Source: Actinomycetota bacterium
GTDB taxonomy: Bacteria; Actinomycetota; Geothermincolia; Geothermincolales; RBG-13-55-18
NCBI GenBank assembly: GCA_014360655.1
Contig: JACIXC010000012.1
Coordinates: 1-64,000 of the forward strand
Direction: 5' to 3'
DNA: 64,000 nt
Position 1 is the stretch's first letter. Each line of letters starts with the position of its first letter. Shown one piece after another: positions 6,296 to 59,882 of this stretch. The position numbers and the translations under genes were made by a program. The notes under the pieces were generated by a model. The model saw only the letters and a list, made by a program, of their open reading frames with translations, was not told where the DNA came from and ran no database searches.

Positions 6296-7426
6296 TCACC
6301 TCGCCTGGATGGCGATATGCAGAACGCCGTCCTCGCTCAGTTCCCACTGCGGCGCTTCGCTCTCCCGCCCGGTGATGAGCTCGAAAAAGGCCTGTGACAT
6401 GCCCACCATGAGAAGGTGAAGGCAGGCGTTGGCGATCTTCACGCTGATACTGCGCGCGTCGGCCTGGAGCTCACCCAGGTACCCCAGGCCCCTGCGCGCC
6501 AGGTAAAGCTTCAGGGAGGTGGCCACCTCCCGTGCCTGCCCGGCATCCACCCGCGCCTTCACGAAACGCCTCTGGGCCTCGACGACCGCCCGCTCAAGGG
6601 AAACCCCGTGCTCCGCCACCATGTCGTCTAGCACGGCATCAACGGCCAGCGAACCGAAGATGGCGACCCTTCTGCCGGTATCGCCGGCGGTGATGGTCCC
6701 CCGCGCGAGGTCCCACCGGTAGGCCGCGATATCCCTCGGTATGCCGCAGGTAGAGCATCTCTCGTACGCGATATCCCCGGGCTTGAACTCGTACCTCTTC
6801 CTGCGCCTCAATCTCCCGCCGAGAGCCACCTGGTGTGAGCCGGGATAAACGCTGACCCGGAATGCGTCCTCCCCAACCTCCTCGCTCTCCACCCGCATAT
6901 CCACCCCCTCGAAGGCCTCCACCGCCCCCAGCACGTCCGCCTTCCACAACCACAGCGAATAAGGATGCTTGATGATCAGGGAGCGCCAGGGATAAGGCTC
7001 TCCGCTCTCCCAGTCCATGGACGCCTCCCCGTATCCGAAGACGCGGGCGACGTTGATGACTCTCTCGCTGAGGTCCTTTCTTATCCTCTGCACGGATTCA
7101 TGAAGCATCTTGCCCGCGGGAGAGTCCCGGTCGTCCGCGCCGGGCACGCCCAGGAGAAGCGTGTTCCTGACCTCGAAGGGAAAGGTCCTCTCGATGAACC
7201 TCCTGGTCTCCCTCCTCCGGCTCTCGATGACCAGGGGTTCCATGGGCTCTCCCGTGAGTTCCGCCACGCCGCGAAAGACGTTGTCTATTATGTTGGATTC
7301 GTAGATGACCATGCGGTTACCGGGAGACTGGGCAAGGCTTATGACACCGCCGTCCTCCCAGCGCAGTTCAGCGCCCAGCATAGCAGGGGCGCCGCATTCC
7401 CGGCATCTCTCGATCTCCGCCACCAT
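6296..7426 (-). CDS. Unrecognised protein, duplicated CxxC + V4R-like module (paralog 1)
   Basis: 376 residues, no family recognised. It consists of two similar halves. Each opens with a CxxCG knuckle (CRECG at residues 8-12, CSTCG at 224-228), then a RW...G-I strand, an R-(M/V)-(V/A)-I strand, and a helix ending in V(I)E(S/A)-RR (VIESRRRETRRFIE / VVEAQRRFVK). A second part of each half resembles the V4R/heme-NO-binding-like fold (GLGYLGEL, then NACLHLLMVGMSQAFFEL). No signal peptide or membrane helix, so probably cytosolic. It is the last of three head-to-tail paralogs, 21 bases after the second. Only two cysteines per half are seen, so the halves may share a metal. The fold match is by eye; function is unknown. 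Confidence 0.8.
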   Translation of the reverse strand: MVAEIERCRECGAPAMLGAELRWEDGGVISLAQSPGNRMVIYESNIIDNVFRGVAELTGEPMEPLVIESRRRETRRFIERTFPFEVRNTLLLGVPGADDRDSPAGKMLHESVQRIRKDLSERVINVARVFGYGEASMDWESGEPYPWRSLIIKHPYSLWLWKADVLGAVEAFEGVDMRVESEEVGEDAFRVSVYPGSHQVALGGRLRRRKRYEFKPGDIAYERCSTCGIPRDIAAYRWDLARGTITAGDTGRRVAIFGSLAVDAVLDDMVAEHGVSLERAVVEAQRRFVKARVDAGQAREVATSLKLYLARRGLGYLGELQADARSISVKIANACLHLLMVGMSQAFFELITGRESEAPQWELSEDGVLHIAIQAR

Positions 7427-7447
7427 CGCCCCCCAGCTCGGCTTCCT

Positions 7448-8575
7448 TCAGACCTTGACCACTATGTGCAGGTCTCCGTCGTCCGACTGCTCCCACTCGT
7501 AGGTGGACTTCTCCAGGTTCAGGGCGATCTCGTAAAGGGCCTGGGCCATGCCCACCATCAGGTGCGGCAGGCAGGAGTTCTCGATGGTCAACGAAAGGTG
7601 CTTTTCGTCCGCCTCGAAGAAGGTCAGGTTGCCCATGCCGCGCAGGGCGGTGAGGCGGTTGAAGGTGATCCCGCCCCTTCTCCAGTTCATCTCGCCGGTC
7701 CTGTCCTTTACGTAACGCCTCTGCGCCTCGACGATCACCCCCGGTATTTCCTCTCCCAGCTCCGACTCGAGGTCCGCGAGCACGGCCTCCAGGGCGGCGG
7801 GCCCGAATATCGCCATCCTCCACCCGGTCTCCGAATCGGTGATCGTCCCCTCTTCCGTATCCCAGCGGTAGCGCGCCAGGTCGGCCGGAAGGCCGCAGGA
7901 GGGGCAACGCTCGTAGGAGATGTCGCCCGGCTTGAAGGCACGTACCCTTTTTCTGTGCAACCTCTCCTTCAACTCCACGGGATGTTCGGAAGGATAGGCG
8001 ATAACCCGGTATACCTCCTCTCCCACCTGCTCGTATCTCGCCCAGAGGTCATCTCCCTCGACGGCCTCCGCCGACCCCAGGGCGTCGGCGACCCAGAAGG
8101 GTATGGAATAAGGCCTGCTCACCACGTTCGTCCTCCAGGGAAAGGGATCGCCTTCCTCCCAGCCCTCGCCGGGTATGGATCTACCGTATCCGTAGACCGC
8201 GCCTATCTCCATGACCCGCATGGTGACCCTTTTCGCCACCTCCCGCACGGGCACGCGGACCACCCGGGAGAGGGGTCCATTTCCCGCCAAATGTCCCTTG
8301 AGCACGCGGAACATCCTCCCTATCAGGGGCGGGAACCTCCTCTCTATGTATCTTCTCACCTCGCGCCGCCTGCTCTCGATGACGATGTGCTCGATGGGCA
8401 TGCCGATGAGCTCCTCTATCCCACGGAAAAGGTTGTCGATGACCCTCGATTCATAGAGCACCATGCGGTTTTCGGGAGACCTCGCAAGGGTTATCACCCC
8501 GTTGCTCCCCCACCTCAGCTCCCTGCTTATCATGAGGGGGATACGGCATCGCGGACAGACCGGGATCTCCTTCAT
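7448..8575 (-). CDS. Unrecognised protein, duplicated CxxC + V4R-like module (paralog 2)
   Basis: 375 residues and the clearest copy of the family. The first half starts CPRCRIPLMISRELRW; the second starts CPSCGLPADLARYRW. Shared landmarks are ENRMVLYESRVIDNLFRGI, VIESRRREVRRYIE, RPYSIPFWVADALGSAEAV and, in the last domain, ENSCLPHLMVGMAQALYEI. The linker FKPGDISYERC just before the second knuckle is nearly identical in all three tandem copies. The ATG at 8575 is chosen because GGAGG lies six bases upstream; a GTG two codons earlier touches that site. Retention of the same architecture in three diverged neighbours argues for three real, separately selected proteins, possibly subunits of a hetero-oligomer. 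Confidence 0.82.
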   Translation of the reverse strand: MKEIPVCPRCRIPLMISRELRWGSNGVITLARSPENRMVLYESRVIDNLFRGIEELIGMPIEHIVIESRRREVRRYIERRFPPLIGRMFRVLKGHLAGNGPLSRVVRVPVREVAKRVTMRVMEIGAVYGYGRSIPGEGWEEGDPFPWRTNVVSRPYSIPFWVADALGSAEAVEGDDLWARYEQVGEEVYRVIAYPSEHPVELKERLHRKRVRAFKPGDISYERCPSCGLPADLARYRWDTEEGTITDSETGWRMAIFGPAALEAVLADLESELGEEIPGVIVEAQRRYVKDRTGEMNWRRGGITFNRLTALRGMGNLTFFEADEKHLSLTIENSCLPHLMVGMAQALYEIALNLEKSTYEWEQSDDGDLHIVVKV

Positions 8576-8740
8576 CGCCACCCTCCGAAGCTCCTATGTC
8601 CCGCTGCTTGCGGGCCGAAAAACCAAGATCACCTGATGATACTTCACCGCTCTCCCTCGAGCTCCCTTTTTCCGAGTGGCGCCCTTTTCCTTGCGCACGC
8701 GAGCGAGAACAAGCCCCCGTTTACCCCGCCCTCTCCTGCG

Positions 8741-9838
8741 TCATCTCACCCAGGTGGATACGGTAAGGTCCCCGTCCTCCGCCAGTTCCCATGCCACCTT
8801 GGAGCGGTCCACCCGGTAGGCCATCTCCACCAGGGCCTGTATCGCGCCCACCATGGGCAGGTGCAGGGCGGAGTTCTCCACGGTCAGGGTGAGGTGGCTG
8901 CGGTCGCCTTCGAAACTGGCAAGGTTTCCCAACCCGCGCAGGGCGATCATGCGGCGGAAGTTCTCCGCGTCCCTCCTCCATTCCTCCGACGCCCAGGCGA
9001 CGCGGATGTAACGGCGCGTGGCCTCGATGACGGTGTCGGGGATAACCACTCCGAGCTCCTCCTCGAGGTCGTCGAAGATGGCGTCCACTCCCAGGGGCCC
9101 GAAGAGGGCCATGCGGCGACCAGTGTCCGTGTCGGTGATCACCCCGTTCTCTGGATCCCATTTCCGCTGGGCCACGTCGAGCGGGACGTTGCATTCAGGG
9201 CAGCGCTCGTAATCTATGTTCCCCGGCTTGAATGAGTATCTCCTTCTCTTCAGGCGCTGCTTGAGCTCCACCGGATGCTCCCCCGGGTAGACCTCGATGC
9301 GGTAGGTGTCTCTCTGGATCTCCTCGTAGCGCACCCACATGTCGATGCCTTCCATGACCTCTATGGAGCCCAGGTTGTCGGCGGCGGCGAAGAATATGGA
9401 ATAGGGCTTCCTTACGATCTGTACCCGCCAGGGATACGGGTCGCCTCTATCCCAAAGGTCGCTGCGCCTGGTGTGACCATACCCGTATACGTGGCCTATG
9501 TCGATTATGTTCTGTCCGATGTTCCTGATGGTCTCCCTGAGCCCGTCCTTTCCCCCGCCGTCCTCTTGCCCGTTTCCCTCGCTCACCTTCCAGATCTCCG
9601 GCGGATAGATCCTCTCGATATAGCGTTTGGTTTCCCGGGCGCGGCTCTCGATGACGATGTGCTCTATGGGCATGCCCAGGAGGCGCTCTATGCCACGAAA
9701 AACCTCGTCGATGATCTCGCACTCGAAGAAGACCATGCGGTTGTGCGGCGAGCTGGCGAGGGAGATCACCCCGTTCGGTTCCCACCTGTGTTGCCGCCCG
9801 ATGAGAGAGGGGACCCCGCAGTACTCACACTTCTCCAT
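8741..9838 (-). CDS. Unrecognised protein, duplicated CxxC + V4R-like module (paralog 3)
   Basis: 365 residues; first gene of the three-gene array. The first knuckle is CEYCGVPSLIGRQHRW, the second CPECNVPLDVAQRKW. The final V4R-like segment reads GLGNLASFEGD, then VENSALHLPMVGAIQALVEM. The start ATG 9838 has GGAAGG seven bases upstream. A gap of about 165 bases separates it from paralog 2 and contains no gene, so a separate promoter there is possible. No enzyme motif is visible. By analogy with V4R domains, which bind small hydrophobic ligands in other proteins, a ligand-sensing or cofactor-handling role is a guess only. Confidence 0.8.
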   Translation of the reverse strand: MEKCEYCGVPSLIGRQHRWEPNGVISLASSPHNRMVFFECEIIDEVFRGIERLLGMPIEHIVIESRARETKRYIERIYPPEIWKVSEGNGQEDGGGKDGLRETIRNIGQNIIDIGHVYGYGHTRRSDLWDRGDPYPWRVQIVRKPYSIFFAAADNLGSIEVMEGIDMWVRYEEIQRDTYRIEVYPGEHPVELKQRLKRRRYSFKPGNIDYERCPECNVPLDVAQRKWDPENGVITDTDTGRRMALFGPLGVDAIFDDLEEELGVVIPDTVIEATRRYIRVAWASEEWRRDAENFRRMIALRGLGNLASFEGDRSHLTLTVENSALHLPMVGAIQALVEMAYRVDRSKVAWELAEDGDLTVSTWVR

Positions 9839-9970
9839 CACCCATCCTTCCCACCGATGTCCGCGTGCCTTGTGAAGTGAACCCCGCGCGATAATCGTAT
9901 CAGGGCAACATGGCCTGTACCTTTCGCTTATCTTCTTCGCGCCCTTGTGGCGGGAGAACCTTTCCCCGCG

Positions 9971-11012: not shown

Positions 11013-11840
11013 CTAACGGGGCTTCAACGCCCGCACGGAGGCGCTGACCACCGCCGCCTGCATTTTCTCCAGCTCCTCCCGCGGCAGATCGCGGCCGGCC
11101 ACCAGTGCCTGCGCGCTCGGGTCGTTGGCCATGCAGTCAAGGGGGAAACGGCTCTCCTGTACCACCTCGACGTCCACGAACCCGGCCTCCCTTATCATGC
11201 GCAGGTAATCATCCTTGCGCGCGGCGCCGGAAATGCAGCCCAGGTAGGCGGCGGTGGATTCCCGGACGACCTGAGGCAGCTCCCCCTCCAGAACGATATC
11301 CGAGACCAGTAACCGTCCGCCGGGCTTTAGAACGCGCCAGGCTTCGCGGAACACCCGGGGCTTGTCGCATGAGAGGTTTATGACGCAGTTGGAGATGACC
11401 GCGTCCACGGAAGCGTCGGCAACCGGAAGGTTCTCTATCTCCCCCAGGCGGAACTCCACGTTCCCGTAGCCGCCCTCCTGCGCGTTCCTCCTCGCCTTCT
11501 CCAGCATCTCGGGCGTCATATCCACGCCGATCACCCTTCCTCTCTCACCCACCCTGGCGGCGGCAAGAAAACAATCCAGCCCCGGGCCGCAACCCAGGTC
11601 GAGCACCGTGTCTCCTTCTTCCAGGGAGGCCAGGGCCACCGGGTTGCCGCATCCCAGGCCCAGGTCCGCGCCCTCCGGCACCGCTTCCAGCTCCTCCCTG
11701 ACGTAACCGATCCTCTCGCTTATCCTCTCCGCCGCGCCCCCTCCGCAGCAGGGCTCCGCCGGTCCGCAACAGGATCCTTTCTTCCGGGCGATGGCCCCGT
11801 AACCCTGGCGCACGACCTTCCCGATATCCTCTCCCTCCAT
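11013..11840 (-). CDS. arsM: Arsenite S-adenosylmethionine methyltransferase
   Basis: 275 residues. It converts arsenite to methylated arsenicals with SAM. The N-terminus has [13 protein letters not shown] with cysteine pairs (24/25 and 31/32). [30 protein letters not shown] (SAM motif I), [23 protein letters not shown] and YLGCISGA are all ArsM hallmarks; the cysteines in the last two motifs match the arsenic-binding cysteines of characterised enzymes. The start at 11840 is set by AAGGAGG seven bases upstream. It lies downstream of a cysteine-rich AbrB-like regulator on the same strand, which suggests metal(loid)-responsive expression. No arsR, arsB or arsC is visible nearby. Confidence 0.92.
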
Positions 11841-12033
11841 CCTCGATCCTCCTTCGTCCCTTTCATGTGCGCGACCCCGCCGGGTGAGGCGATCCCTCAC
11901 GACAGGCGCCTTCCCCGCCGCCGTGCCCTCATGCCCACGCGCCCGTGCGTCGGGCAGCCTTGAGCGGGTCCTTTGTTGTCCCCGCGGGTCACGCCGGCTT
12001 AGATCCTTCTCCGCCCATGTTGCGGGAGCGGCT

Positions 12034-17745: not shown

Positions 17746-20700
17746 ATGTCACCAGGCCATGCCGCGCAGTGCGGCAGGAGGTTGAGCCGGCTCGCGGAAG
17801 GCATCCGGGAGCTCTGCTCGCGCCACCTCCTGGAGGAGAAATGGCTCCTTGCGCCCTCGTACAGGGTTGCCTTCCAGTGGCTCGACGCGGTGGCGTTCTC
17901 GGGCCAGCCCGTCTTCAACCTGCGCCTGAAGACCGTTCCCTCGCTCGCGCTCGAGATAGCCGCGCCGAAGATGGTTGCGGAGGGCCTGTCCTTCCTGGAG
18001 GGGTTCAAGCTCCAGTTGCTCATCGAGGAAGTGCTCCGGGGTCTCGGCGGAGCCGGGGGCTATCTGCCCGGGATGCAGGAGAGCTCCGGCCTGGCGCAGG
18101 CCGTGCGCCGCTCCCTCCTTGACCTGAGGCTTGCCGGCCTTGCCCCGGAGGGACTGCGGACGCGGGATTTCGAGGTCGCCGCCAAGGGAAGGGAGCTGGC
18201 AGCCCTTCTCCGCGCTTTCCAGCACGAACTGGAAAGGCGCAGGCTCGCCGATTATCCGGAGGTATTGCGCCTGGCCGAAGAGGCGCTGCGCGACCATCCG
18301 GAGACCGTTCCCGAGGGGGTGATCATCGCCATGCCCGAGGACATGGAAAGGAGGTCCTGGGGCCGCGAGAGGGCGTTCCTTCTCGCGTTGCTCCAGCGCC
18401 GGTCATTCCCCCTGCCGGCCGATCACCCCGAGGGCGAGCGGGAGGTGGAAAGCGATGCCTCGCTGTTGAGATACGCGCAGCGCCCCTCCCTGGCGCCATC
18501 CCCCCGGGGAGACGGGACGGTGGAGCTGTTCCGCGCCGCGGGCGAGGCCAACGAGGTGCGCGAGGTATTACGACGCTGCCTGGAAAAGGGAATCCCTTTC
18601 GACGACGTGGAGATCCTTTATACGGACAGCGAGACCTATCTACCCCTCATCTACGAGGTCTCTTCCCTGCTCGCCCGCGAGGCGGGAGAAGCACCTCCCG
18701 CGACCTTCGCAGAGGGGATACCCCTTGGTTACACGCGGCCGGGACGCGCCCTCGCGGGCTGGCTGCAATGGATCAGGGAGGATCACTCCCAACCCGTGCT
18801 GGCACGGCTGCTGCAGGACGGTCTGCTCGACGTCGATGGTGCCGAAGAGGAGGGGTTGAGCTTCTCCCGCCTGGCCGCTCTCTTCCGCACCCTCCCCATA
18901 GGGAACGGGCGAGGGCGTTACCTCCGGGCTTTCGACGCTGTTCTCCGGGACTCGACGGCAGGAGAGGGTACGGGGGAGGACGGCAGCGGGGGAGATTCAC
19001 CGCGGAACGCGAAAATCCGTGGGCTCCGGCTGTTGAGGAGGTTGTGTTGCGACCTGCTCGACTCCCTACCAGACGACCTGGATGATGCCGCCGGGGTCCT
19101 CTCCGCCGTCCAGGAGCTGCTGACATCGAAAATACGCGGCATCGGCGAGATGGACGAGTACGCGCGCAAGCGCCTGCTGAAAACGGTGCGCGAGGCATCA
19201 TCGTGCCTCGGGGAAGTCCCCCTCTCCGGAAGGAGGGTCCTCTCCTGGATGGAGGAGCAGGTGGCAACCGCCGTGGTCGAGGGCGAGGGCCCGCGTCCAG
19301 GGCGCATCTTCGTGGCTCCCCTGCACTCCGGGGGACACTCTGGCCGTTCCCACGTCTTCGTGGTGGGACTGGACGACGGCCGCTTCCCCGGGGCCGCTTT
19401 CCAGGACCCGCTCCTCCTGGACTCCGAGAGGAAGAGGCTGTCCGCGGAACTGCCCACCTCATCCACGCTCAGCGAGATCAAGGTGGAATCTTTTTCCATG
19501 TTGATGAGCAGGCTGCGCGCCAGCGTCACCCTTAGCTACAGCTGCCGCGACATCGCCGAGGACAGGGAGATGTTCCCGAGCCCGGTCATGGTGTCCGCCT
19601 TCAGGATCACCTCCGGGAAGCGGGATGCTACCCTGGAGGACCTGCTGGCTTCCCTTCCGCCTCCCGCCTCCTTCGCGCCCACCTCGGAACGGGGGTGCCT
19701 CTCCATGTCCGAATGGTGGCTGTACCGCCTCTGCGAGCGGGGCCCGGTACCCGATGCGGAGCAGGCGGTGGCAGCGGCTTTCCCCCACCTGGGCCGCGGC
19801 ATGGATGCCAGGCGCGCCCGCGAGAGCGATGGCTTCACCGTGTACGATGGTTACGTACCCGAAGCGGGAAGAGACCTGGATCCCTCCAGGCCGGGGGGGC
19901 CGGTGCTCTCCTCGCAGCGCCTGGAATTGCTGGGCAAGTGCCCGCTGGAATATTTCTTCACCTACATCCTCGGGATAAGCCCCCCGGAAGAATTCCTCTA
20001 CGATTCCCAGGTCTGGCTGAACGCCATGGAAACGGGGGGATTGCTGCACCGCGTTTTCAATGCCTTTTACCGCCGACTTCGCGAGCTGGGGGAGCTCCCC
20101 GACTTTCAACGTCACTGGCCCTTGCTGCAAGAGATACTGGAGAGCGAGATAGAGTCCTCAAGATCACTGAAACCACCCCCCAATCCGCAGGCTTTCGCGG
20201 AGACGCGGGCACGGCTTCGCATGACTGCCAGGATATTCCTCCGCGAGGAGGAGGCGAACCGCGAAGCGAGGATGCCGCTCTACTTCGAGGTCGCGGTGGG
20301 CACGGAGAAAGAGGGGGGCAACCCCGTCGACCTGGCGGAGCCGGTGACGGTAACGCTGCCCGGTGGCAGGCAAGTACGGGTACGCGGCACCATCGACCGT
20401 ATCGACGCCCTACCCGGCGACGGGAGGGAGCGTTTCGTGGTCTGCGACTACAAGACGGGTTCCGCCGGCGGTTACGACGAGAAAGACCCCTTCCGCGGGG
20501 GAAGATGCGTACAGAACTACCTCTACCTGGTGCTGGCGCGCGCCTGCCTCCCGCAGCGCCACCGCGATGCGGAGGTCACGTCCTTCGAGTATTACTTCCC
20601 CGGCGTAAAGGGGCACGGGGAACGCGTCTCCTGGGAGGCGAGCCGGTTGGATGGGGGCCTCGAGGTCCTCGCTGACCTGTGCAGCATGCTCTCCCTGGGA

Positions 20701-20871
20701 TGTTTCCCCTGCAGCGACTACCCAGATGACATGAAACACAGCGACTTCAAGCCCGCCTTCCTCGACGTGGAAAAGAGCGCTGAGCAGCTGCAGGCCAAGC
20801 TCGCCAACCACGAGAACGACACTCTCGCTCCCTTCAGGCGCCTGCGCATGCCCGGGGAGGTGGGGTCATGA
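17746..20871 (+). CDS. addB: AddB-like helicase-nuclease subunit
   Basis: 1041 residues. The N-terminal two-thirds is a degenerate UvrD-like region with no intact Walker A, as in AddB. The C-terminus has a PD-(D/E)XK nuclease core: DRIDAL then VVCDYKTG (D901, K903), and a following QNYLYLVLA helix. It pairs with the helicase gene overlapping its stop by four bases; together they should resect double-strand breaks for RecA loading. The first expected Fe-S cysteine is kept (C732 in GKCPLEYFF). The C-terminal C-x2-C-x5-C positions appear replaced by Met, Ser and Phe (DDMKHSDFKPAF), although a C986/C989 pair lies just before. The start ATG follows AAGGCAGGGGGAG. Confidence 0.85.
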   Translation: MSPGHAAQCGRRLSRLAEGIRELCSRHLLEEKWLLAPSYRVAFQWLDAVAFSGQPVFNLRLKTVPSLALEIAAPKMVAEGLSFLEGFKLQLLIEEVLRGLGGAGGYLPGMQESSGLAQAVRRSLLDLRLAGLAPEGLRTRDFEVAAKGRELAALLRAFQHELERRRLADYPEVLRLAEEALRDHPETVPEGVIIAMPEDMERRSWGRERAFLLALLQRRSFPLPADHPEGEREVESDASLLRYAQRPSLAPSPRGDGTVELFRAAGEANEVREVLRRCLEKGIPFDDVEILYTDSETYLPLIYEVSSLLAREAGEAPPATFAEGIPLGYTRPGRALAGWLQWIREDHSQPVLARLLQDGLLDVDGAEEEGLSFSRLAALFRTLPIGNGRGRYLRAFDAVLRDSTAGEGTGEDGSGGDSPRNAKIRGLRLLRRLCCDLLDSLPDDLDDAAGVLSAVQELLTSKIRGIGEMDEYARKRLLKTVREASSCLGEVPLSGRRVLSWMEEQVATAVVEGEGPRPGRIFVAPLHSGGHSGRSHVFVVGLDDGRFPGAAFQDPLLLDSERKRLSAELPTSSTLSEIKVESFSMLMSRLRASVTLSYSCRDIAEDREMFPSPVMVSAFRITSGKRDATLEDLLASLPPPASFAPTSERGCLSMSEWWLYRLCERGPVPDAEQAVAAAFPHLGRGMDARRARESDGFTVYDGYVPEAGRDLDPSRPGGPVLSSQRLELLGKCPLEYFFTYILGISPPEEFLYDSQVWLNAMETGGLLHRVFNAFYRRLRELGELPDFQRHWPLLQEILESEIESSRSLKPPPNPQAFAETRARLRMTARIFLREEEANREARMPLYFEVAVGTEKEGGNPVDLAEPVTVTLPGGRQVRVRGTIDRIDALPGDGRERFVVCDYKTGSAGGYDEKDPFRGGRCVQNYLYLVLARACLPQRHRDAEVTSFEYYFPGVKGHGERVSWEASRLDGGLEVLADLCSMLSLGCFPCSDYPDDMKHSDFKPAFLDVEKSAEQLQAKLANHENDTLAPFRRLRMPGEVGS

Positions 20872-23800
20872 CGAAAGCGCGCGCAAAGCAAGGCATGGAG
20901 CGCCTTCCCGACCTCGGCCAGAGGGAGAGGATCGTCACGGAGCTCGATAAGAACATGCTGGTGGAGGCCGCGGCAGGGACGGGAAAGACCACCTGCATGG
21001 TGCAGAGGATGCTGGCCCTGCTGCGCACGGGGAAATGCGGAGAGATCCGCAACCTGGTGGCTATCACCTTCACGCGCAAGGCCGCGGGCGAGATACGCAG
21101 CCGCTTCCAGGTGGAGCTGGAACGGGAAACGAGGGAGGCTTCGGGAGCGGAAAGGAAGAACCTGGAGCGCGCCCTGGACGGGATTGAGCATTGCTTCATC
21201 GGCACCATACATTCCTTTTGCGCCCGTCTCCTGCGGGAAAGACCCGTGGAAGCCGGGCTGGACCTCAACTTCAGGGAGATGGACGACCTCGAGGACAGGC
21301 TCCTGCGGGAAGAGGCCTGGGAGGAGTTCATCTCCCGCATCACCTCACACGATCCCGACGACATAACGGGTGAGCTCGGCAGGGTGGGTTTGAGCCCTTT
21401 CGATCTTAAGCCTGTCTTCATGGACTTCGTGGATTTCCCGGACGTGGACGAGTGGCCCCTCCCCGACGATGTAGACCTGGAGGCGGCGTGTGAGCGCGCG
21501 AGGAAAAACCTGGAAGCATACCTGGAACACGTGCTGGAGCTGCTTCCACGACTTCCCGCGGAGTCGGGCACGGACGAACTCATACCGGAGCTCAAGCGGC
21601 TGCCGCGTGTCGTTTCCCACTACAACCTGGAGGATCCCGTGGAACTCATGGAGGTTCTGGAACGCTTCGAAAGCGACCCCAAGGTCACGAAAAAGATGTG
21701 GGAAAATGGCTCCGCGCTGACAAAGGAAGACGCCGAGAGGGAGAGTGAACGTTGGAGCCGTTTTCGCGAGGATACGGTGCGGCCGGCCCTGGAGGCATGG
21801 AGGGAGGCACGCTACGCGGTGGCCATGCGTGCGCTCTCCCGCGCAGGAGAGGTTTACGAGCGACTGCGGATGGAACGTGGTTGCCTGAACTTCCAGGACC
21901 TGTTGATGTCCGCGGCGCGCCTGCTGCGCGAGAACCCGCATGTCAGGCGCTACTTCCAGTCCCGCTATACCCACCTGATGGTGGACGAGTTCCAGGACAC
22001 CGACCCCGTGCAGGCGGAGGTCATCTTCCTGCTCGCTTCCTCCGACGTCGACCAGGTTGACTGGCGCCGTTGCACGCCACGCCCCGGTTCCCTCTTCCTG
22101 GTAGGGGACCCCAAGCAGTCCATCTACCGTTTCCGCCGCGCCGACATCACCACCTACAACGAGGCCAAGAAGCTGGTGCTGGATACCGGAGGCTCGCTGG
22201 TGCACCTGTCCGCCAACTTCCGCTCCCGGCCCGCGCTCATCGATTGGGTAAACCGCGTCTTCGAACCCCGGGAGGAGGCCGACGCTGGCACCGGGACGGA
22301 GGCCAGGTTCCCGCCGCAAGACACGGATGTCTCGCCGTGCTACGTGCCCCTGCTGAAAGGAAGGGAAGAGGGGGATTCCCTTGGGCTGGAAGGCGTCTAT
22401 CGTATCCCCGTTCCCAGGGAATTGAGCAAAAAGGAACAGATCATCCCCTACGAGGCCGACCTCATCGCGCGTTTCATCCGCCATGCCCTGGACGAAGGCA
22501 TGGCCATCCCCCGCTCCAGGAGGGAGATGGAGCGCGGTGTCCCCCCGCAGGCCAGACCCTCCGACTTCATGATCATCACTTACAATAAGGGCGGCCTCGA
22601 CATCTTCGCCCAGAAGCTGCGTGAATACGGGGTGCCCCACCGCGTCAGCGGCGGAGCCGCCCTCAAGGATAACGAGGAGCTGCGGCTGCTGTACCTGTAC
22701 CTCAAGGCCGCGCTCTACCCCGACGATCCCGTGGCGCTGGTGGCCGTGCTTCGCAGCGAGCTCTTCGGCATAAGCGACGCCGCACTCTACTCCTTCAAGA
22801 AGCACGGGGGGGTCTTCTCCTTCTATGCGCCCGTCCCGGAAGGAATGCCCGCGGAAGAGGCCGAGGCCTTCAGGGATGCCTTCCGGCGCCTGAGGAGGGG
22901 CCGTGAATCCATCTTCCGGATGCCGCCCATGGCCGCCGTCGAGAGCACGGTGGATGAACTGGGGCTTGCCGCGCTGGCCGCGTCTCGCCCCGGGGGAGAC
23001 CTGCGCGCGGGGGGATTTCTCAAGGGCGTGGAGCTGCTGCGCGAAACCCGCGGGTGGGGTTGGAGCAGCGCCCAGCTGCTGGACACCCTGGGGCTCATGC
23101 TCGAGGGCAAGGTGGAGCATGACGGGATGACCGCGCGTTCCGAGGACCCTCCGGCGGTGAGGGTACTCAACCTGCACAAGGCCAAGGGCCTGGAAGCGCC
23201 CGTCGTCTTCCTCGCCGACGTCACCGGCAAGCAGAGCAGGCCGTATGTCCAGCGGCACGTCGACCGCTCCGGAGACAAGGTGCGTGGCTACCTCGCCCTC
23301 TACCGAGACCAAGAATCTTACTCGAAGAAGATCCTGGCGCATCCACGGGAATGGGATGACATCTCCCGGCGCGAGCTCGTATTCCAGGAAGCGGAAGAAT
23401 TGAGGCTGAGGTACGTGGCCGCGACCCGGGCGGGCACGGCCTGCGTCGTGAGCACCAGGGAGACGTTCAGAAACAGGAACCCGTGGGCGGCTTTCCAGGA
23501 TCTCGTAGCTGACGGGCCTGCCCTCGAGGCACCAGCGCGGACGGTACACGACACGGAGGAAGGCGAGAGAATAGGCCGCCAGGAGGTACGATACGCCGTG
23601 GAAGAACTGCAGGGCTCGCTGGCCGCACTGCGGAAAGAGACCCACCGCGTGCTGGCCGCCAGGGAATACGCTCTCGCCGAGGCGGAGAGATTGACCGGGA
23701 GGCGGACATGGGAGATCGTGGAGAGGGGCTCACCGGGACGGTCCTCGCGTCGCCATGGTCCCGGAGCCGATCTGGACAACGTGCCAGGCGATGACGGGGG

Positions 23801-24287
23801 GAGCGAGCAGGGCATGGCCTGGGGCGAGGTGATCCACCTCCTCCTGCAGGTGGCCATGGAAAGGCCACGGGCTGATCTCCTCCCCCTCGCGCGCTCCGCC
23901 CTGCGCGGGAAGGACATGGACCCCTCGCTGGCGGAGGAAGCGGTCCTCGTCGCCGGCGCCATCACCGCCTCGCCCCTGTGGCAGAGGGCCCTGCGCAGTG
24001 GATGCCGCCTGGTCGAGATCCCCTTCCATGTCCCGCTCGACGACGGATGCGACGTCCCCACCGTCGTGCGCGGCGTCGTCGACCTCGCCTTCCGGGAAGA
24101 CGGCGGCTGGGTGCTCGTGGACTACAAGACCGGGGGCCGCGGAAGCAGCAAATCGCGCGGACTGGAGCCGGATTACGAAGCCCAGATCCTCCTTTACGCG
24201 CGGGCCTGGGAGCGGTGCACGGGCGAGGGGGTGAAGGAAGCCCTGGTGTACCTGGTGGAGGAGGGCCTCCTCTACCGCGTGTCTTGA
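20868..24287 (+). CDS. addA: AddA/RecB-like UvrD-family helicase with C-terminal nuclease
   Basis: 1139 residues. Superfamily 1 helicase motifs in order: AAAGTGKTT (34-42), ITFTRKAAGEI, HLMVDEFQDTDPVQ, LVGDPKQSIYRFRRADI, LSANFRSRP, LNLHKAKGLEAPVVFLAD and LRYVAATRA. A PD-(D/E)XK nuclease domain closes the protein with WVLVDYKTGG (D1085, K1087) and a QILLYARAW helix. The ATG is translationally coupled to addB. This is the motor subunit of the recombinational repair complex. Length and motif order fit AddA better than RecB because the partner is AddB-like and no RecC or RecD is present. Confidence 0.9.
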   Translation: MTKARAKQGMERLPDLGQRERIVTELDKNMLVEAAAGTGKTTCMVQRMLALLRTGKCGEIRNLVAITFTRKAAGEIRSRFQVELERETREASGAERKNLERALDGIEHCFIGTIHSFCARLLRERPVEAGLDLNFREMDDLEDRLLREEAWEEFISRITSHDPDDITGELGRVGLSPFDLKPVFMDFVDFPDVDEWPLPDDVDLEAACERARKNLEAYLEHVLELLPRLPAESGTDELIPELKRLPRVVSHYNLEDPVELMEVLERFESDPKVTKKMWENGSALTKEDAERESERWSRFREDTVRPALEAWREARYAVAMRALSRAGEVYERLRMERGCLNFQDLLMSAARLLRENPHVRRYFQSRYTHLMVDEFQDTDPVQAEVIFLLASSDVDQVDWRRCTPRPGSLFLVGDPKQSIYRFRRADITTYNEAKKLVLDTGGSLVHLSANFRSRPALIDWVNRVFEPREEADAGTGTEARFPPQDTDVSPCYVPLLKGREEGDSLGLEGVYRIPVPRELSKKEQIIPYEADLIARFIRHALDEGMAIPRSRREMERGVPPQARPSDFMIITYNKGGLDIFAQKLREYGVPHRVSGGAALKDNEELRLLYLYLKAALYPDDPVALVAVLRSELFGISDAALYSFKKHGGVFSFYAPVPEGMPAEEAEAFRDAFRRLRRGRESIFRMPPMAAVESTVDELGLAALAASRPGGDLRAGGFLKGVELLRETRGWGWSSAQLLDTLGLMLEGKVEHDGMTARSEDPPAVRVLNLHKAKGLEAPVVFLADVTGKQSRPYVQRHVDRSGDKVRGYLALYRDQESYSKKILAHPREWDDISRRELVFQEAEELRLRYVAATRAGTACVVSTRETFRNRNPWAAFQDLVADGPALEAPARTVHDTEEGERIGRQEVRYAVEELQGSLAALRKETHRVLAAREYALAEAERLTGRRTWEIVERGSPGRSSRRHGPGADLDNVPGDDGGSEQGMAWGEVIHLLLQVAMERPRADLLPLARSALRGKDMDPSLAEEAVLVAGAITASPLWQRALRSGCRLVEIPFHVPLDDGCDVPTVVRGVVDLAFREDGGWVLVDYKTGGRGSSKSRGLEPDYEAQILLYARAWERCTGEGVKEALVYLVEEGLLYRVS

Positions 24288-39423: not shown

Positions 39424-40488
39424 CTAGTCGTTCTTGCTCGAGAGGATCATCTCGAGATAGCTCTCCCGCTGCACCAGCTCGCCCAAGGCGAGTTCGCGAC
39501 CACTGAAGGTCTCGAGGAGACCCCACATCCTCCCCGCCACGATGGAGGGTGCGTAGGGGTTGACCACCGCGATCCTGAAATGATCTCCCTTCCTCGCAAG
39601 TTTCGTCGGACGTCCCCAGCTGCGCAGGGGAAATTTCATGAGCTCCGCGTCCAGCGAGCTCTCCCCCTTCAGAGACCGGTAATACCCGCGGGCGTAATCC
39701 CGCGAGATATCCATTACCATGCGGTCTATCTCCTCCCCAAGCTCCTCCCGCAACACACGAAGCACGGCCGCGATGCCGTTGGTGTTGTGCAGGATGAAGC
39801 GTTTGCCGGAGATCTTCTCGAGTATCAACGCCTCGTCGGCGTTCCAGGAGAACTGCCTTGGCACCTCGAGGGGGACGCCGCACTCAGGGCATTGCTCGTA
39901 CTGAAGATCCCTCTCGTCCTCGCAGGGGATGCCCAGCTCCACCTCCTGCTCTATGCGCTGCTCCAGTTCCGGTTCCCCCTCAGTCGCGACGATGTCGAGG
40001 GTCTCGCGCGTGGGCTCGTCCTTCCACACCGGCTCGCCCCTCCTCTTCTCAGCGGCCTCGAACACGCCCGCCCAGTCTCCCCTGCTCATGGGGTCGTTGT
40101 AATACCCCGAGATCCGCATGGTAAGCCGCTCACCCTCGCGGTAGTCGAGCACCTCAGCCAGCCCCAGGCCCCAATACTTGCAGAACCTGGCGACGAGGTT
40201 GTAGACCTCAAGGGGGGAGGGTTCATGCCCCGTGGTCGCGAGGTTGCGTATGAGGGAATCCGCGTAACGCCTGCCGTCCTTTCGCTTGCCCTCGATCACC
40301 AGGCGGGTGATATCGAAACCGATGCGCTCGGAAAGGGCGGGGAAGAGGGAGTTGAGCTCCTCCACGTCGTAAAGGGTGCCCCGTATATGGGGAGGAACAC
40401 TGGCGGTGACAACACCGTTGGCATGCCAGATGTTTCCCCTGCCTATCCCCTTCGGCAATCCACACCGGGAACACGTCTTCCGTGCCAT
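39424..40488 (-). CDS. Unrecognised protein, duplicated CxxC + V4R-like module (paralog 4, divergent)
   Basis: 354 residues from the ATG after GGGGGAGGGAGAG. It has the same plan as the three proteins at 6.3-9.8 kb: knuckles CSRCG (6-10) and CPECG (about 210), each followed by a strand-rich region and a helix ending in VIEGKRKDGRRY or MDISRDYARGYY. The V4R-like parts are GLGLAEVLDYREGERLTMRI and RKGDHFRIAVVNPY with GRMWGLLETFSGREL. It stands alone, 30 kb from the others, and is clearly more diverged. This suggests an old family expansion rather than a recent copy. Function unknown. Confidence 0.72.
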   Translation of the reverse strand: MARKTCSRCGLPKGIGRGNIWHANGVVTASVPPHIRGTLYDVEELNSLFPALSERIGFDITRLVIEGKRKDGRRYADSLIRNLATTGHEPSPLEVYNLVARFCKYWGLGLAEVLDYREGERLTMRISGYYNDPMSRGDWAGVFEAAEKRRGEPVWKDEPTRETLDIVATEGEPELEQRIEQEVELGIPCEDERDLQYEQCPECGVPLEVPRQFSWNADEALILEKISGKRFILHNTNGIAAVLRVLREELGEEIDRMVMDISRDYARGYYRSLKGESSLDAELMKFPLRSWGRPTKLARKGDHFRIAVVNPYAPSIVAGRMWGLLETFSGRELALGELVQRESYLEMILSSKND

Positions 40489-55674: not shown

Positions 55675-55890
55675 ATGCCACCGGGAGGAAGAGGTGGATG
55701 GGGAAAACCCTATCCCTACTGCAGGTGCTACCCCTGGCTTCCAAGGCGCTGGTGGGCATACCCGGGTTACGGATACGGGATACCCTACGCAGGTTTCGGG
55801 AATTATATCCCCTGGAACGTACCCAGGAGCGGCTACCCCCCGTATTCCCCTCCAGCGCCTTTCGCTCCAGGTAGTTGGCAGAACACTTAA
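55675..55890 (+). CDS. Small tyrosine/proline/tryptophan/glycine-rich protein
   Basis: 71 residues of biased composition: KPYPYCRCYPWLPRRWW, then YPGYGYGIPYAGFGNY and a PP-rich end. Two cysteines are spaced CRC. GGGAGGTGAGAATATG gives a good Shine-Dalgarno. No family recognised, but similar aromatic-rich small proteins accompany DUF5320 genes and NifX-like genes in anaerobes, as here. The bias could reflect an unstructured, metal- or membrane-binding chain. Confidence 0.6.
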   Translation: MPPGGRGGWGKPYPYCRCYPWLPRRWWAYPGYGYGIPYAGFGNYIPWNVPRSGYPPYSPPAPFAPGSWQNT

Positions 55891-55938
55891 GTATGAGCTT
55901 TCTCGCACCACGGCAATCAAGTCACGAGGAGGTGAAAA

Positions 55939-56247
55939 ATGGGAGGCTACGGCAACAGGAACATGTACCGCATGACGGGTCTTCCCGGTTGGATGAGGTT
56001 CGGTTACAGCCCCGGGTGGCAGGGGCGCAGCCCCAGCGGCCTGGGACCCTGCGCCGAATACCTGATGACCGGCAGGTGGCCTACGCCCCAGATGGAGCAG
56101 GCCTGGCAGCCCCGCCAGGCCACTGCGGGAGCAGGGTTTGCGATGGGCCCGGAGCAGGAACTCGACTTTCTCAAATCACGCGCAGACCTTCTCTCGCAAC
56201 AGCTCGAGAACGTGCGCAAGCGCATCGAGGAGCTGGAAAAGAAATAG
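55939..56247 (+). CDS. DUF5320-like small coiled-coil protein
   Basis: 102 residues. The N-terminal half is glycine/arginine/tryptophan-rich (GYSPGWQGRSPSGLGPC). The C-terminal half is a helix with EQELDFLKSRADLLSQQLEN and VRKRIEELEKK, the arrangement of DUF5320. Such proteins are common next to Mrp and NifX-like genes. AGGAGG precedes the start. It is 48 bases downstream of the tyrosine-rich gene and probably co-transcribed. Function unknown. Confidence 0.7.
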   Translation: MGGYGNRNMYRMTGLPGWMRFGYSPGWQGRSPSGLGPCAEYLMTGRWPTPQMEQAWQPRQATAGAGFAMGPEQELDFLKSRADLLSQQLENVRKRIEELEKK

Positions 56248-56417
56248 CCCTGGTGGCGTGGCGGAAAAGGCGGCCGGGTCTTGCCTGCTTTGGGCAGGCT
56301 CCCTACCCGGCGCCTTTCTTCCTTCTGTCCCAACGCTTCTCCGGCATCATAGCGATCTTGTTTAAATGTCACGGAGAGGAGAGTCCCGGGAAACGTCATC
56401 GCGATGAGCGGTTTAAA

Positions 56418-56699
56418 CGTCATTGCGAGGAGCGGAGCGACGAAGCAATCTCCTCCGGACTTCCCCCGGGCCATAAGCAAGCCCCGGCATTATTCGCTTT
56501 CTTCCCGGCGAGATTGCCGCGTCGGCGCTTGCGCGCCTCCTCGCAATGACGGCAACGGGGCAACACGTTGGTGCCTGACCCCACCTGTTGCCCCGTTGGT
56601 GCCTGACCCCACCTGTTGCCCCGTTGGTGCCTGACCCCACCTGTTGACACTGGGAAACGTCATTGCGAGGAGCGGAGCGATGCGGCGACCTCCTCCGGA
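56418..56699. repeat. REP-like elements and a 28-bp triple tandem repeat
   Basis: CGTCATTGCGAGGAGCGGAG and following bases occurs at 56418-56459 and 56658-56699, and a mirrored version (ending CCTCCTCGCAATGACGG) at 56510-56552, so transcripts could fold. Between them CGTTGGTGCCTGACCCCACC plus CTGTTGCC is repeated three times from 56566, 56594 and 56622. The element resembles REP-type repeats widespread in bacterial genomes. The region 56248-56831 has no supported gene. Confidence 0.8.
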
Positions 56700-56831
56700 T
56701 GAACGACCGTTTGTCCCCATTACCACCACGTATGATAATAAGTCATGGGGACGAATACATGATCGCGTGCCTCTTGCCCTTCGGCATCTACATGGACAAG
56801 GTCGGCAGGATAAACAGAGGGGGTAGGAACG

Positions 56832-57497
56832 ATGAAAGCCACGAAAGCAGCTGCGCTGTTGCTTTCCCTGGCCATGCTCGCGTTATCCGTGGTCTCCTGC
56901 GGCAATGCCGGCGAAAGCCCCGCCCCGCCGCAACCGGCGCCGCTCAAGGAAAACGGAACGGGAACTCCGCCCGCGGTCCAGCCATCATCCGGCGACACCG
57001 TGCTCATGGTCGTATGCCAGGACGGCTTCCAGGATATCGAGTACAACACGGTGCGCGGCGAGCTGGCCGCCGCCGGATACAAGGTGAGCGTGGCCGCCCC
57101 GCAGAAGGCGACGGCCTCCGGCGTATCCGGAACCAGCGTCGCCCCGGACCTCGCCCTGGCTGAGGCCCATGCAGCAGGTTACCTGGCGGTGGTCTTCATC
57201 GGGGGGCCGGGAACGGATTCTCTCTTCGATAACGAGGACGCGCACCGCCTGGCCATGGAAGCAGCGGAAGGGGGCAAGGTCCTGGCGGCCATATGCCTGG
57301 CCCCGGCGATCCTCGCCCGGGCCGGCTTGCTCGCGGGGAAGCGTGCCACCTCTTACCCGTCCGCCTCCGGCTACCTCACCACCGGCGGAGCCGACTACAC
57401 CGGCAGCGAGGTCGAGGTGGACGGCAACGTCATCACCGCCTCCGGCCCGGACGCGAGCCACGACTTCGCCCAGGCGATCATCGACGCCCTACGCTGA
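56832..57497 (+). CDS. DJ-1/PfpI-family lipoprotein
   Basis: 221 residues. A lipoprotein signal ends in the lipobox LSVVSC, so the protein is tethered outside the membrane. The class I glutaminase-like fold follows: VLMVVCQDGFQDIEYNTVR, VFIGGPGTD and AAICLAP with the nucleophile-elbow cysteine. PfpI/DJ-1 proteins act as proteases, chaperones or glyoxalase/deglycase-like enzymes in the cytosol. An exported, lipid-anchored version is unusual. The start region has GGGGG about six bases before the ATG. Confidence 0.85.
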   Translation: MKATKAAALLLSLAMLALSVVSCGNAGESPAPPQPAPLKENGTGTPPAVQPSSGDTVLMVVCQDGFQDIEYNTVRGELAAAGYKVSVAAPQKATASGVSGTSVAPDLALAEAHAAGYLAVVFIGGPGTDSLFDNEDAHRLAMEAAEGGKVLAAICLAPAILARAGLLAGKRATSYPSASGYLTTGGADYTGSEVEVDGNVITASGPDASHDFAQAIIDALR

Positions 57498-57521: not shown

Positions 57522-58678
57522 TCACGCATCCGTGGACAGGCGGTCGAAGCTTTTGCGCTCCCAGTTCCGGAAGTAACGGGTCCACATCTTGAGCCAGGGC
57601 GCGGGAACCGCCGGTCGCTCCCTGAGCTCGCGCACCGTCGCCTTGAGGCATGGCCCGCCCATATTCCGGTAGCGAAAGGCCCCGATACCCCAGAAATCGC
57701 GTATCCTTTTCCTGAGCTCCTTCTCGTCCTCGCTCGCGATCACCTTCCGCATGTCCCACCGGCGCCAGTCCGTGATGCAGTGGATGAGGAAGGGTCCTCC
57801 TTCACCCGCTCCTCGTAGAGGCTCAGGAAACGCCGGGAGGTGTCACCGGCTTCCAGTACCTCGACGGCCATGTCGGCCGCTATGTCCGCGGAGAACCAGG
57901 CGGCCGGCACCCCATCGCACAGCTCGGTGCTCTCCAGGCCAGCCGCGTCTCCCACCAGGATCATGCCGTCCGTATGATTGGGCATGCCCCGCAGCCGCGG
58001 ATCCAACCCCACGAAGATCTCGAACCCCTCCCACGTGTGTGCCCGCAGCCTTATACGGGGTGCCACCTCGTCCCGCCACCAGGGCAGTTTCCCGGTCAGG
58101 TTCTCATGATAGACCTCGAAGAGCCTTCGCAGGTTGGGCACCCGCCCGCCGTCCAGGCGAAGGCACTGGTCCTGCATGAAATGGAGGCTGGAGTTGTAGG
58201 GCCAGGACATCAGGCCGTTTCCGTGTCCCAGGGGAGGCGCCACCTGCTGCTCATCCCAGCCCCAGCAGAAGCGCAGCTTGTACCCGAAGATGCGGTTCAC
58301 GTCCTCCTTGTCCATCTCATAATCGTAGACATCGGCCAGGGTAATGGCCTCGGGCGGGTACTTCTCGCGCACCCCCGCCTTTATCGCCAGCAGGCCCTGT
58401 GAACCCTCCGCGTCGATCACCAACCGGCAGGGGATGCGCTCCCCGCCGTCGGTCACCACCCCGCAGACGGCGCCATTGCCGTCGCGGATCACGTCCACCA
58501 CCGTGGTGGACGTGCGCAGCTCCACCCCCGATTCCACCGCACGGTTTGCTTCCCACTGGCAGAACGGCTTGCAGTAGGCGTTGTAGCCGAAGCTGAAGAT
58601 GGGGGAGAAGGGCCTGGGGACCTTGAGGGAATCGTCGATATCGATGTCCCCGGCGTCTATGTCCTTTATGGTGTTCAT
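57522..58678 (-). pseudogene. Decayed FixC-like FAD-dependent oxidoreductase
   Basis: The main frame (57740-58678) contains FSFGYNAYCKPFCQWEANRA, RLVIDAEGSQGLLAIKAGV, and the second FAD motif GMILVGDAAGLESTELCDG. The N-terminal dinucleotide-binding part is missing: no GxGxxG is found upstream. At about 57797 one base is lost or two are inserted; reading past it in the next frame gives FLIHCITDWRRWDMRKVIAS and the expected C-terminal part (57522-57752). A 5' truncation and a frameshift together indicate a pseudogene. The intact relative would feed electrons to a quinone or ferredoxin (FixABCX-like). Confidence 0.75.
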
Positions 58679-58948
58679 CAGATCGGCGACATCGTCGTCA
58701 GCGGTTCCACTGGTCTTTGCTTGGTACCTTGAACCAGCATGAATGAACCACGTTCATCTATCAAAGAGCGAATTTACACACAAAAGGGCACGTTATCTCC
58801 CCGGAATCCGCTTGCATGATGACGGCTTACGGCAGTCAACGGCTCATGGGATGATGAAGCGAGGCTCCAGGGCTGACCGGTTGCCGTACGTTGACACCCA
58901 TGGAAAAAGACGGGCCGGCACTTGTGAATACCGGCCCGGTTCCGTTAC

Positions 58949-59024
58949 TGGAGCCCCTGGGGAGAATCGAACTCCCGACACAGGGATTAGGAATCCCTTG
59001 CTCTGTCCACTGAGCTACAGGGGC
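58949..59024 (-). tRNA. tRNA-Arg (anticodon CCT)
   Basis: Complete cloverleaf on the minus strand: acceptor GCCCCTG/CAGGGGC, D arm GCTC...GAGC, anticodon stem AGGGA/TCCCT with loop TTCCTAA (anticodon CCT, reading AGG), T arm GGGAG TTCGATT CTCCC, and an encoded CCA end. Confidence 0.95.
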
Positions 59025-59135
59025 TCGATCTCTCTCCGGTTTCCCTGTCCGTTGTTTAAGTCAACCAAACCAAGAGTCGGCTCTCAGGTCATCTTAACCG
59101 TTACGCACCGTTTTTAACGTCCGTTATTATGGCCC

Positions 59136-59882
59136 TCACATGTTCATCATGTCCAGGTACCACTTGTCGCCTTCTTTGACCATCTGGAGCTCCGCGGGGG
59201 TTTCCGCGTCCTTGACGTCCTCCGTGCTCTCGGTTCCCGACTCGTCCACCACGGTGACCTTGCCCTCGACGATCTCCACCGTGGCCTTGTCGTCACCCTC
59301 CATTGTGGTCTTGTACTTCACGCCCGAGAACTTCATGCTCTTATAGGTCGAGAAGAACATGTCCTCGAAGAACTCGTCGATGCTCCCGTAATCGCCGTAT
59401 GAGAGCATGGACTCCAGGTATTCCAGGGAGGAGGGAGCGATGGTGCTCTTTAGCAGCTTCGCGTCCTTGTTTTCCATCGCCTTGAGGAAGTTCGCCGCCA
59501 CTTCCTCCGGCCCTCCCTTGCCTCCTCCTTCCCCACCGGTGAACCATTTCGGTCCCACTGCGAATCCCAGGAGAAGAACCACTATGGCGCCGACGACCAG
59601 CAGTCCCAAACCCCCGAAGAGGACGGCCTTGCCGCCCCCTCCCTTCTTGCCGCCCGCGGGCTGATAGTATCCGGGCGCGGGGGTGGCGGGTGGCGGCTGG
59701 TAGGAGGGTTGCATCCCCGCAGCCGGCGGGGCCGCTTCCCGTGGGGGTGGGGGTGTTGCAGCGCTCGGCGGTGGCGGCACCGTGGCGGCTTGCGTCGCCT
59801 CCGCCCGAGCAGGCGCCCCGCACTTGGGGCAGAAGGCGCTGCCCTCGCTCAGCTCGGAGCCGCATTTTTCACAAAAAGCCAT
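59136..59882 (-). CDS. Zinc-ribbon, proline-rich, single-span membrane protein
   Basis: 248 residues. The N-terminal zinc ribbon is FCEKCGSELSEGSAFCPKCG. Then a long proline/alanine/glutamine-rich linker, one transmembrane helix (VLFGGLGLLVVGAIVVLLLG) and an external domain with repeated charged pairs (KAMENKDAKLLKSTIAPSS). It shares architecture and ribbon with the protein at 9971-10570; external domains are only weakly similar. AAGGAGG lies six bases before the ATG. Function unknown. Confidence 0.8.
   Translation of the reverse strand: MAFCEKCGSELSEGSAFCPKCGAPARAEATQAATVPPPPSAATPPPPREAAPPAAGMQPSYQPPPATPAPGYYQPAGGKKGGGGKAVLFGGLGLLVVGAIVVLLLGFAVGPKWFTGGEGGGKGGPEEVAANFLKAMENKDAKLLKSTIAPSSLEYLESMLSYGDYGSIDEFFEDMFFSTYKSMKFSGVKYKTTMEGDDKATVEIVEGKVTVVDESGTESTEDVKDAETPAELQMVKEGDKWYLDMMNM

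Follow-up and report, generated by a model that had tools for sequence, protein, structure and literature searches.

Three paralogous genes with an internal repeat

The window analysed here (64,000 nucleotides; positions 1 to 64,000 of contig JACIXC010000012.1 from an Actinomycetota bacterium) carries three adjacent genes on the reverse strand, W1 (8741–9838), W2 (7448–8575) and W3 (6296–7426), whose diverged products of 365 to 376 residues match those of the preliminary description. W1 has 365 residues when read from the ATG at 9838, with a possible GTG start at 9841 that underlies the 366-residue numbering used below; W2 has 375 residues from the ATG at 8575 (a GTG at 8581 is also possible) and W3 has 376. 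The W2 and W3 proteins are 51% and 44% identical to W1, respectively. Comparison of W1–W3 with the copies of genus-mates gave dN values of 0.12–0.15 and dS values of 0.70–0.88 (ratio ∼0.16–0.18), indicating that these are proteins maintained under purifying selection. An open reading frame on the forward strand (6965–9235) was dismissed as a shadow of the W1–W3 coding strand, which is firmly the reverse one.

Each protein contains two CxxC knuckles, one per half, which in W1 are formed by C5 and C8 (9818–9829, reverse strand) and by C214 and C217 (9191–9202, reverse strand). The knuckles lie 209 residues apart in W1, 217 in W2 and 216 in W3, the last figure being exactly the distance first read between CRECG and CSTCG. 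The motif plan proposed from the letters largely held, in that RW, (V/I)(V/I)E..RR, KPG(D/N)I.YERC and RG(L/M)G were all recovered; it did not hold throughout, as W1 has VIESRAR (in the first half) and KW as exceptions, one half each, and W3 shows RGLGY instead of RG.GN and ANACL instead of ENS.L.

The internal duplication claimed for each protein is far beyond chance: profiles of the N-terminal and C-terminal halves aligned over 156 columns (hhalign probability 99.9, P 3e-31), and a hidden Markov model of N-terminal halves detected C-terminal halves with E values down to 1e-27. In W1 the N-terminal half (residues 1–196; 9254–9841, reverse strand) and the C-terminal half (residues 206–366; 8744–9226, reverse strand) each comprise a knuckle, a hairpin and a predicted V4R-like domain, and no genuine single-half protein was seen among family members. 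The family proteins are mostly acidic (median pI 5.3) and soluble, and transmembrane segments were found in none of them.

W1-type proteins match no family in the libraries searched

Searches of Pfam, NCBIfam and PHROGs returned no full-length family match for W1–W3, and the PDB no sequence match; the impression that no known family is involved was thus borne out in all domain libraries searched, and no characterised family covering the full length was obtained. Weak, knuckle-sized zinc-finger matches in the Pfam, NCBIfam, PHROGs and PDB searches were set aside, since any CxxC motif yields such matches. The V4R model (PF02830) gave no match at E≤10 in W1–W3, nor in the whole host genome, and V4R is absent from the families listed for 53 members. 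Nothing in a viral structure library matched, and tblastn against phage and plasmid collections gave zero matches, so that these collections give no sign of the family being carried by mobile elements. Neither tandem V4R proteins nor the W1-type family turned up in a search of the open-access literature.

Both halves are predicted to adopt the V4R/H-NOX/TRAPP-Bet3 fold

The AlphaFold2 model of full-length W1 (pLDDT 90.7, pTM 0.89) consists of a β-strand, at least two helices, β-β, a helix and β-β, in the same order in both halves, which are therefore predicted to share one fold. In a Foldseek comparison of this model with the PDB, the top matches were H-NOX proteins, accompanied by YslB, MopR, Bet3/TPC6, BcsD and MJ1460, and nearly all top matches belong to one superfamily, that of the V4R/Bet3/H-NOX fold. 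The C-terminal half modelled alone (pLDDT 91.4) had as its best six matches the V4R domains of the phenol sensors MopR and PoxR (E 1.1e-5 to 4.9e-5), both phenol-bound, with TM scores of 0.60–0.66 (MopR 0.66 at E 1.1e-5; PoxR 0.62). Independent of any model, a profile of the halves and canonical V4R proteins of sister genomes gave a collinear hhalign alignment (probability 86, P 5e-6, against 0.3 for the reversed profile), and one of these canonical proteins itself matches PoxR, DmpR/CapR and MJ1460 in the PDB. The early guess of a V4R or heme-NO-binding fold is thus upheld by model and profile alike, and by these comparisons each half is predicted to adopt the V4R/H-NOX/TRAPP-Bet3 fold.

A GxxxG-type glycine pair in each of α2 and α5 is a hallmark of V4R/Bet3 proteins (PMC2253512). 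The α5 pair is retained as G/A in both halves of the new family ([GA]154xxxG158 and G332xxx[GA]336), the α2 pair is not. As judged from the profiles, sequence homology to canonical V4R is remote and lies at the level of the superfamily rather than of the family. Because the V4R model misses these proteins and the C-terminal Cys motif of V4R is absent from them, we do not file them under PF02830 itself; W1-type proteins are a new family in the V4R superfamily. The GLG/RGMG-N and ENS-L motifs, put forward earlier as hints of ligand binding, do exist, but they occupy V4R-like turn and strand positions and W3 lacks their strict forms.

The proteins might instead bind nucleic acid through the knuckles and the conserved ES.RR and EA.RR helices, a reading that we consider very unlikely. 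The Arg-rich helix is indeed conserved in both halves and zinc-finger models give weak matches; these matches span the knuckle only, however, the two helices align with the packed α2 helix of V4R, the median pI is on the acidic side, and no common upstream motif survived correction.

Four near-invariant cysteines suggest one shared metal site

Among 120 members, C214, C217 and P220 are invariant (120/120), and all four Cys of the two knuckles are present in 117. Of the three others, two lack part of the N terminus, apparently because the sequence stretch ends there, and the third (L014) carries C8 → G. In these 120 proteins the conservation of every other Cys or His column stays at or below 62%: the best-conserved His column (position 189, 62%) lies outside the helices, and a Cys at position 325, the only one in the region of the V4R C-terminal motif, occurs in 45% of members. 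Two CxxC knuckles with no other conserved Cys or His suggest a single Cys4 zinc site built jointly by the two halves and locking them into a pseudo-dimer. The metal binding proposed earlier is accordingly plausible from the conserved Cys, but probably at one site common to both halves rather than at one site per half.

A Cys4 site of this kind could instead be a redox switch, in which the zinc site senses and the V4R-like domains transmit. Fold relatives offer precedents: the heme-free H-NOX of Vibrio cholerae (PMC7108781) and MsvR, a V4R regulator of methanogens (PMC3729527), both respond to oxidation through Cys, and four near-invariant Cys would suit such a mechanism. We nevertheless judge it unlikely as the main function, given that up to 52 copies in one genome are hard to explain by redox sensing alone, that diverged domains with invariant Cys better fit a structural metal, and that L014 has lost one of the four.

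The family is expanded throughout the host's class and its paralogs are old

The three-gene array is a small tandem cluster, as described, but only part of the picture, since it belongs to a genome-wide and class-wide family with 19 members in the host genome (2.97 Mb, 99.96% complete). A diverged fourth member, W4 (39424–40488, reverse strand; 354 residues, 22% identical to W1), lies within the window, between the genes for a ferredoxin-domain protein and an acyl-CoA dehydrogenase. A further, very diverged member of the host genome (L018:6298-7437) is basic (pI 9.3) and 20% identical to W1.

The family was found in 31 of 31 species sampled of the host's class, probably Geothermincolia in GTDB, at 2 to 52 copies per genome. 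When the sensitive family profile was applied, within Actinomycetota only, to 296 genomes across the phylum, the 25 of the host's class all matched, and the remaining 271 Actinomycetota genomes gave no match. A scan of all species with a single protein, which detects close relatives only, returned four loci, all in Actinomycetota metagenome-assembled genomes.

A tree of the family resolves 12 supported single-copy ortholog groups, including those of W2 (7 genomes) and W3 (8 genomes), and individual paralogs keep their neighbours across genera; paralogs are therefore old and vertically kept, and probably not interchangeable. The W2 and W3 groups are consistent with distinct, non-redundant roles, and a hetero-complex of W1–W3, one of the two explanations first offered for the array, is possible. 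Genes of the W1 type in the narrow sense also duplicate locally. At locus L112 (G004:C9:54579-61266), the genes at 55786–56910 and 58572–59696 score identically and alternate with other paralogs, which suggests that a two-gene unit was recently duplicated in tandem, or that the assembly is at fault here.

More broadly, paralogs could assemble into a scaffold or tether, akin to the Bet3 subunits of TRAPP or to BcsD, and be structural components of a heteromer instead of receptors. The fold matches include Bet3, TPC6 and BcsD, and tandem clusters of 3–5 paralogs recur across genera. Most copies, however, stand singly at dispersed genomic positions, and a copy number ranging from 2 to 52 suits a fixed complex poorly; we regard this explanation as improbable.

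Members are almost always solitary genes

With gene calls from a simple script, an upstream gene on the same strand and no more than 60 bases away was found for 2 of the 68 members that have no family neighbour, compared to 81 of 227 for other genes (Fisher p 4e-9), which argues that family members are almost always transcribed alone. Neighbours vary from copy to copy, and no conserved neighbour indicating a pathway was found across the members examined. Recurring neighbours that had looked like pathway clues (biotin carboxylase/EamA beside W1–W3, PhoU, MazG with a radical SAM protein, thiolase) were traced to ortholog synteny of particular paralogs. An upstream AACCTTG element (6 of 19 regions, against 4 of 166) is not claimed as an operator, because thousands of 7-mers were compared and its p of 8e-6 carries no correction for this.

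Thiolases, acyl-CoA dehydrogenases, AMP-binding enzymes or SCP2 are encoded next to some copies, as might be expected if the proteins were enzymes, or chaperones of enzymes, of hydrophobic-substrate (fatty acid, aromatic) metabolism. Since these neighbours change between copies, share no operon with family members and may just belong to gene types that are abundant in these genomes, and since no conserved set of catalytic-type acids and bases stands out, we think this quite improbable.

Several other genes were recorded in passing. Proteins containing DUF5719, some of them with subtilase or YkuD, adjoin members in several genomes of the class (L106, L128, L131, L141, L145 and L148). In the window, adjoining genes for a PD-(D/E)XK nuclease and a UvrD helicase (17782–24287, forward strand) probably form an AddAB-type pair, and a methyltransferase with a Cys-rich N terminus (11013–11900, reverse strand) resembles arsenite methyltransferases by eye.

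A candidate repertoire of two-pocket sensors or carriers

V4R domains in general are regarded as likely binders of hydrophobic ligands that pass signals on in cis or in trans (PMC2253512). The reading that we prefer, although we hold it with no more than even confidence, is that W1-type proteins are soluble single-chain pseudo-dimers, zinc-clamped and with two pockets, that serve as sensors or carriers of hydrophobic or aromatic ligands and act in trans. The genes are predicted to encode a tandem pair of strongly diverged V4R-superfamily domains, with a CxxCG knuckle and a β-hairpin in front of each; the knuckles would jointly bind one zinc in a Cys4 site, rubredoxin- or zinc-ribbon-like, that clamps the halves together, and the fused pair would stand in for the homodimer that ordinary V4R sensors form. 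In each half, a putative hydrophobic pocket would accommodate a small ligand of aromatic or lipid-like character, whose binding may shift the halves and thereby signal to a partner, necessarily in trans because the protein carries no output domain. Redox opening of the Cys4 site may serve as a second input, and the specificity of these receptors or carriers would differ among the 2–52 diverged copies of a genome.

Diverged domains on an invariant frame, together with many copies and solitary genes, are more readily reconciled with such a repertoire than with a subunit of a complex or an enzyme of a pathway. Against the receptor reading, neither the PoxR-like C-terminal Cys motif nor the heme His of H-NOX is conserved, and no neighbour indicates a pathway. 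A more specific version, in which tens of zinc-clamped, single-chain, two-pocket V4R receptors are each transcribed alone and act in trans via a common partner, is tentative and in our view rather less likely to be right than wrong; if true, it would constitute a receptor system of a kind undescribed in bacteria.

Of 29 genomes of the class, 12 carry canonical V4R proteins (∼240–310 residues; L076–L097), often as adjacent pairs, and the window's genome has none; such pairs might give a clue to the origin of a fused one. V4R proteins are a proposed prokaryotic ancestor of TRAPP Bet3, and seven V4R copies in Ignicoccus were regarded in 2008 as unusually many for an archaeon (PMC2253512). The fused-duplicate version reaches 52 copies per genome, occurs in every species sampled of the class and is missed by all domain libraries searched. 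An uncultured lineage that devotes roughly 1% of its genome to one family looks to hold a large unexplored set of small-molecule receptors, and offers a ready panel for asking what V4R-like pockets bind and how a fused pseudo-dimer substitutes for a homodimer.

Comparison with known systems

Elsewhere, the V4R/H-NOX fold senses phenols, nitric oxide or redox state, and phenol sensors of the V4R type work as dimers. The closest relatives by structure are the V4R domains of the XylR-type regulators MopR, PoxR and DmpR, which provide the best structural match of the W1 C-terminal half, a collinear profile match and a common α5 GxxxG-like pair. Unlike them, the new family has two domains per chain, a CxxCG knuckle in front of each and no AAA+ or HTH output, and it lacks the V4R C-terminal Cys (PVC...EC...C in PoxR). 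H-NOX proteins, the heme-based NO/O2 sensors that include the heme-free, redox-sensing V. cholerae protein, lead the matches of the full-length model, whereas W1-type proteins have no conserved heme-ligand His and are tandem, with a knuckle before each domain. YslB of B. subtilis and BcsD have the fold predicted for the halves of the new family and are single domains not known to carry such a knuckle. The same fold recurs in Bet3 and TPC6 of TRAPP and in the archaeal V4R protein MJ1460 (target-normalised TM up to 0.59); Bet3 proteins dimerise between chains (PMC2253512), whereas in the new family the pair is fused and each half bears a knuckle. The W1-type family is, in sum, a new version of an already known fold.
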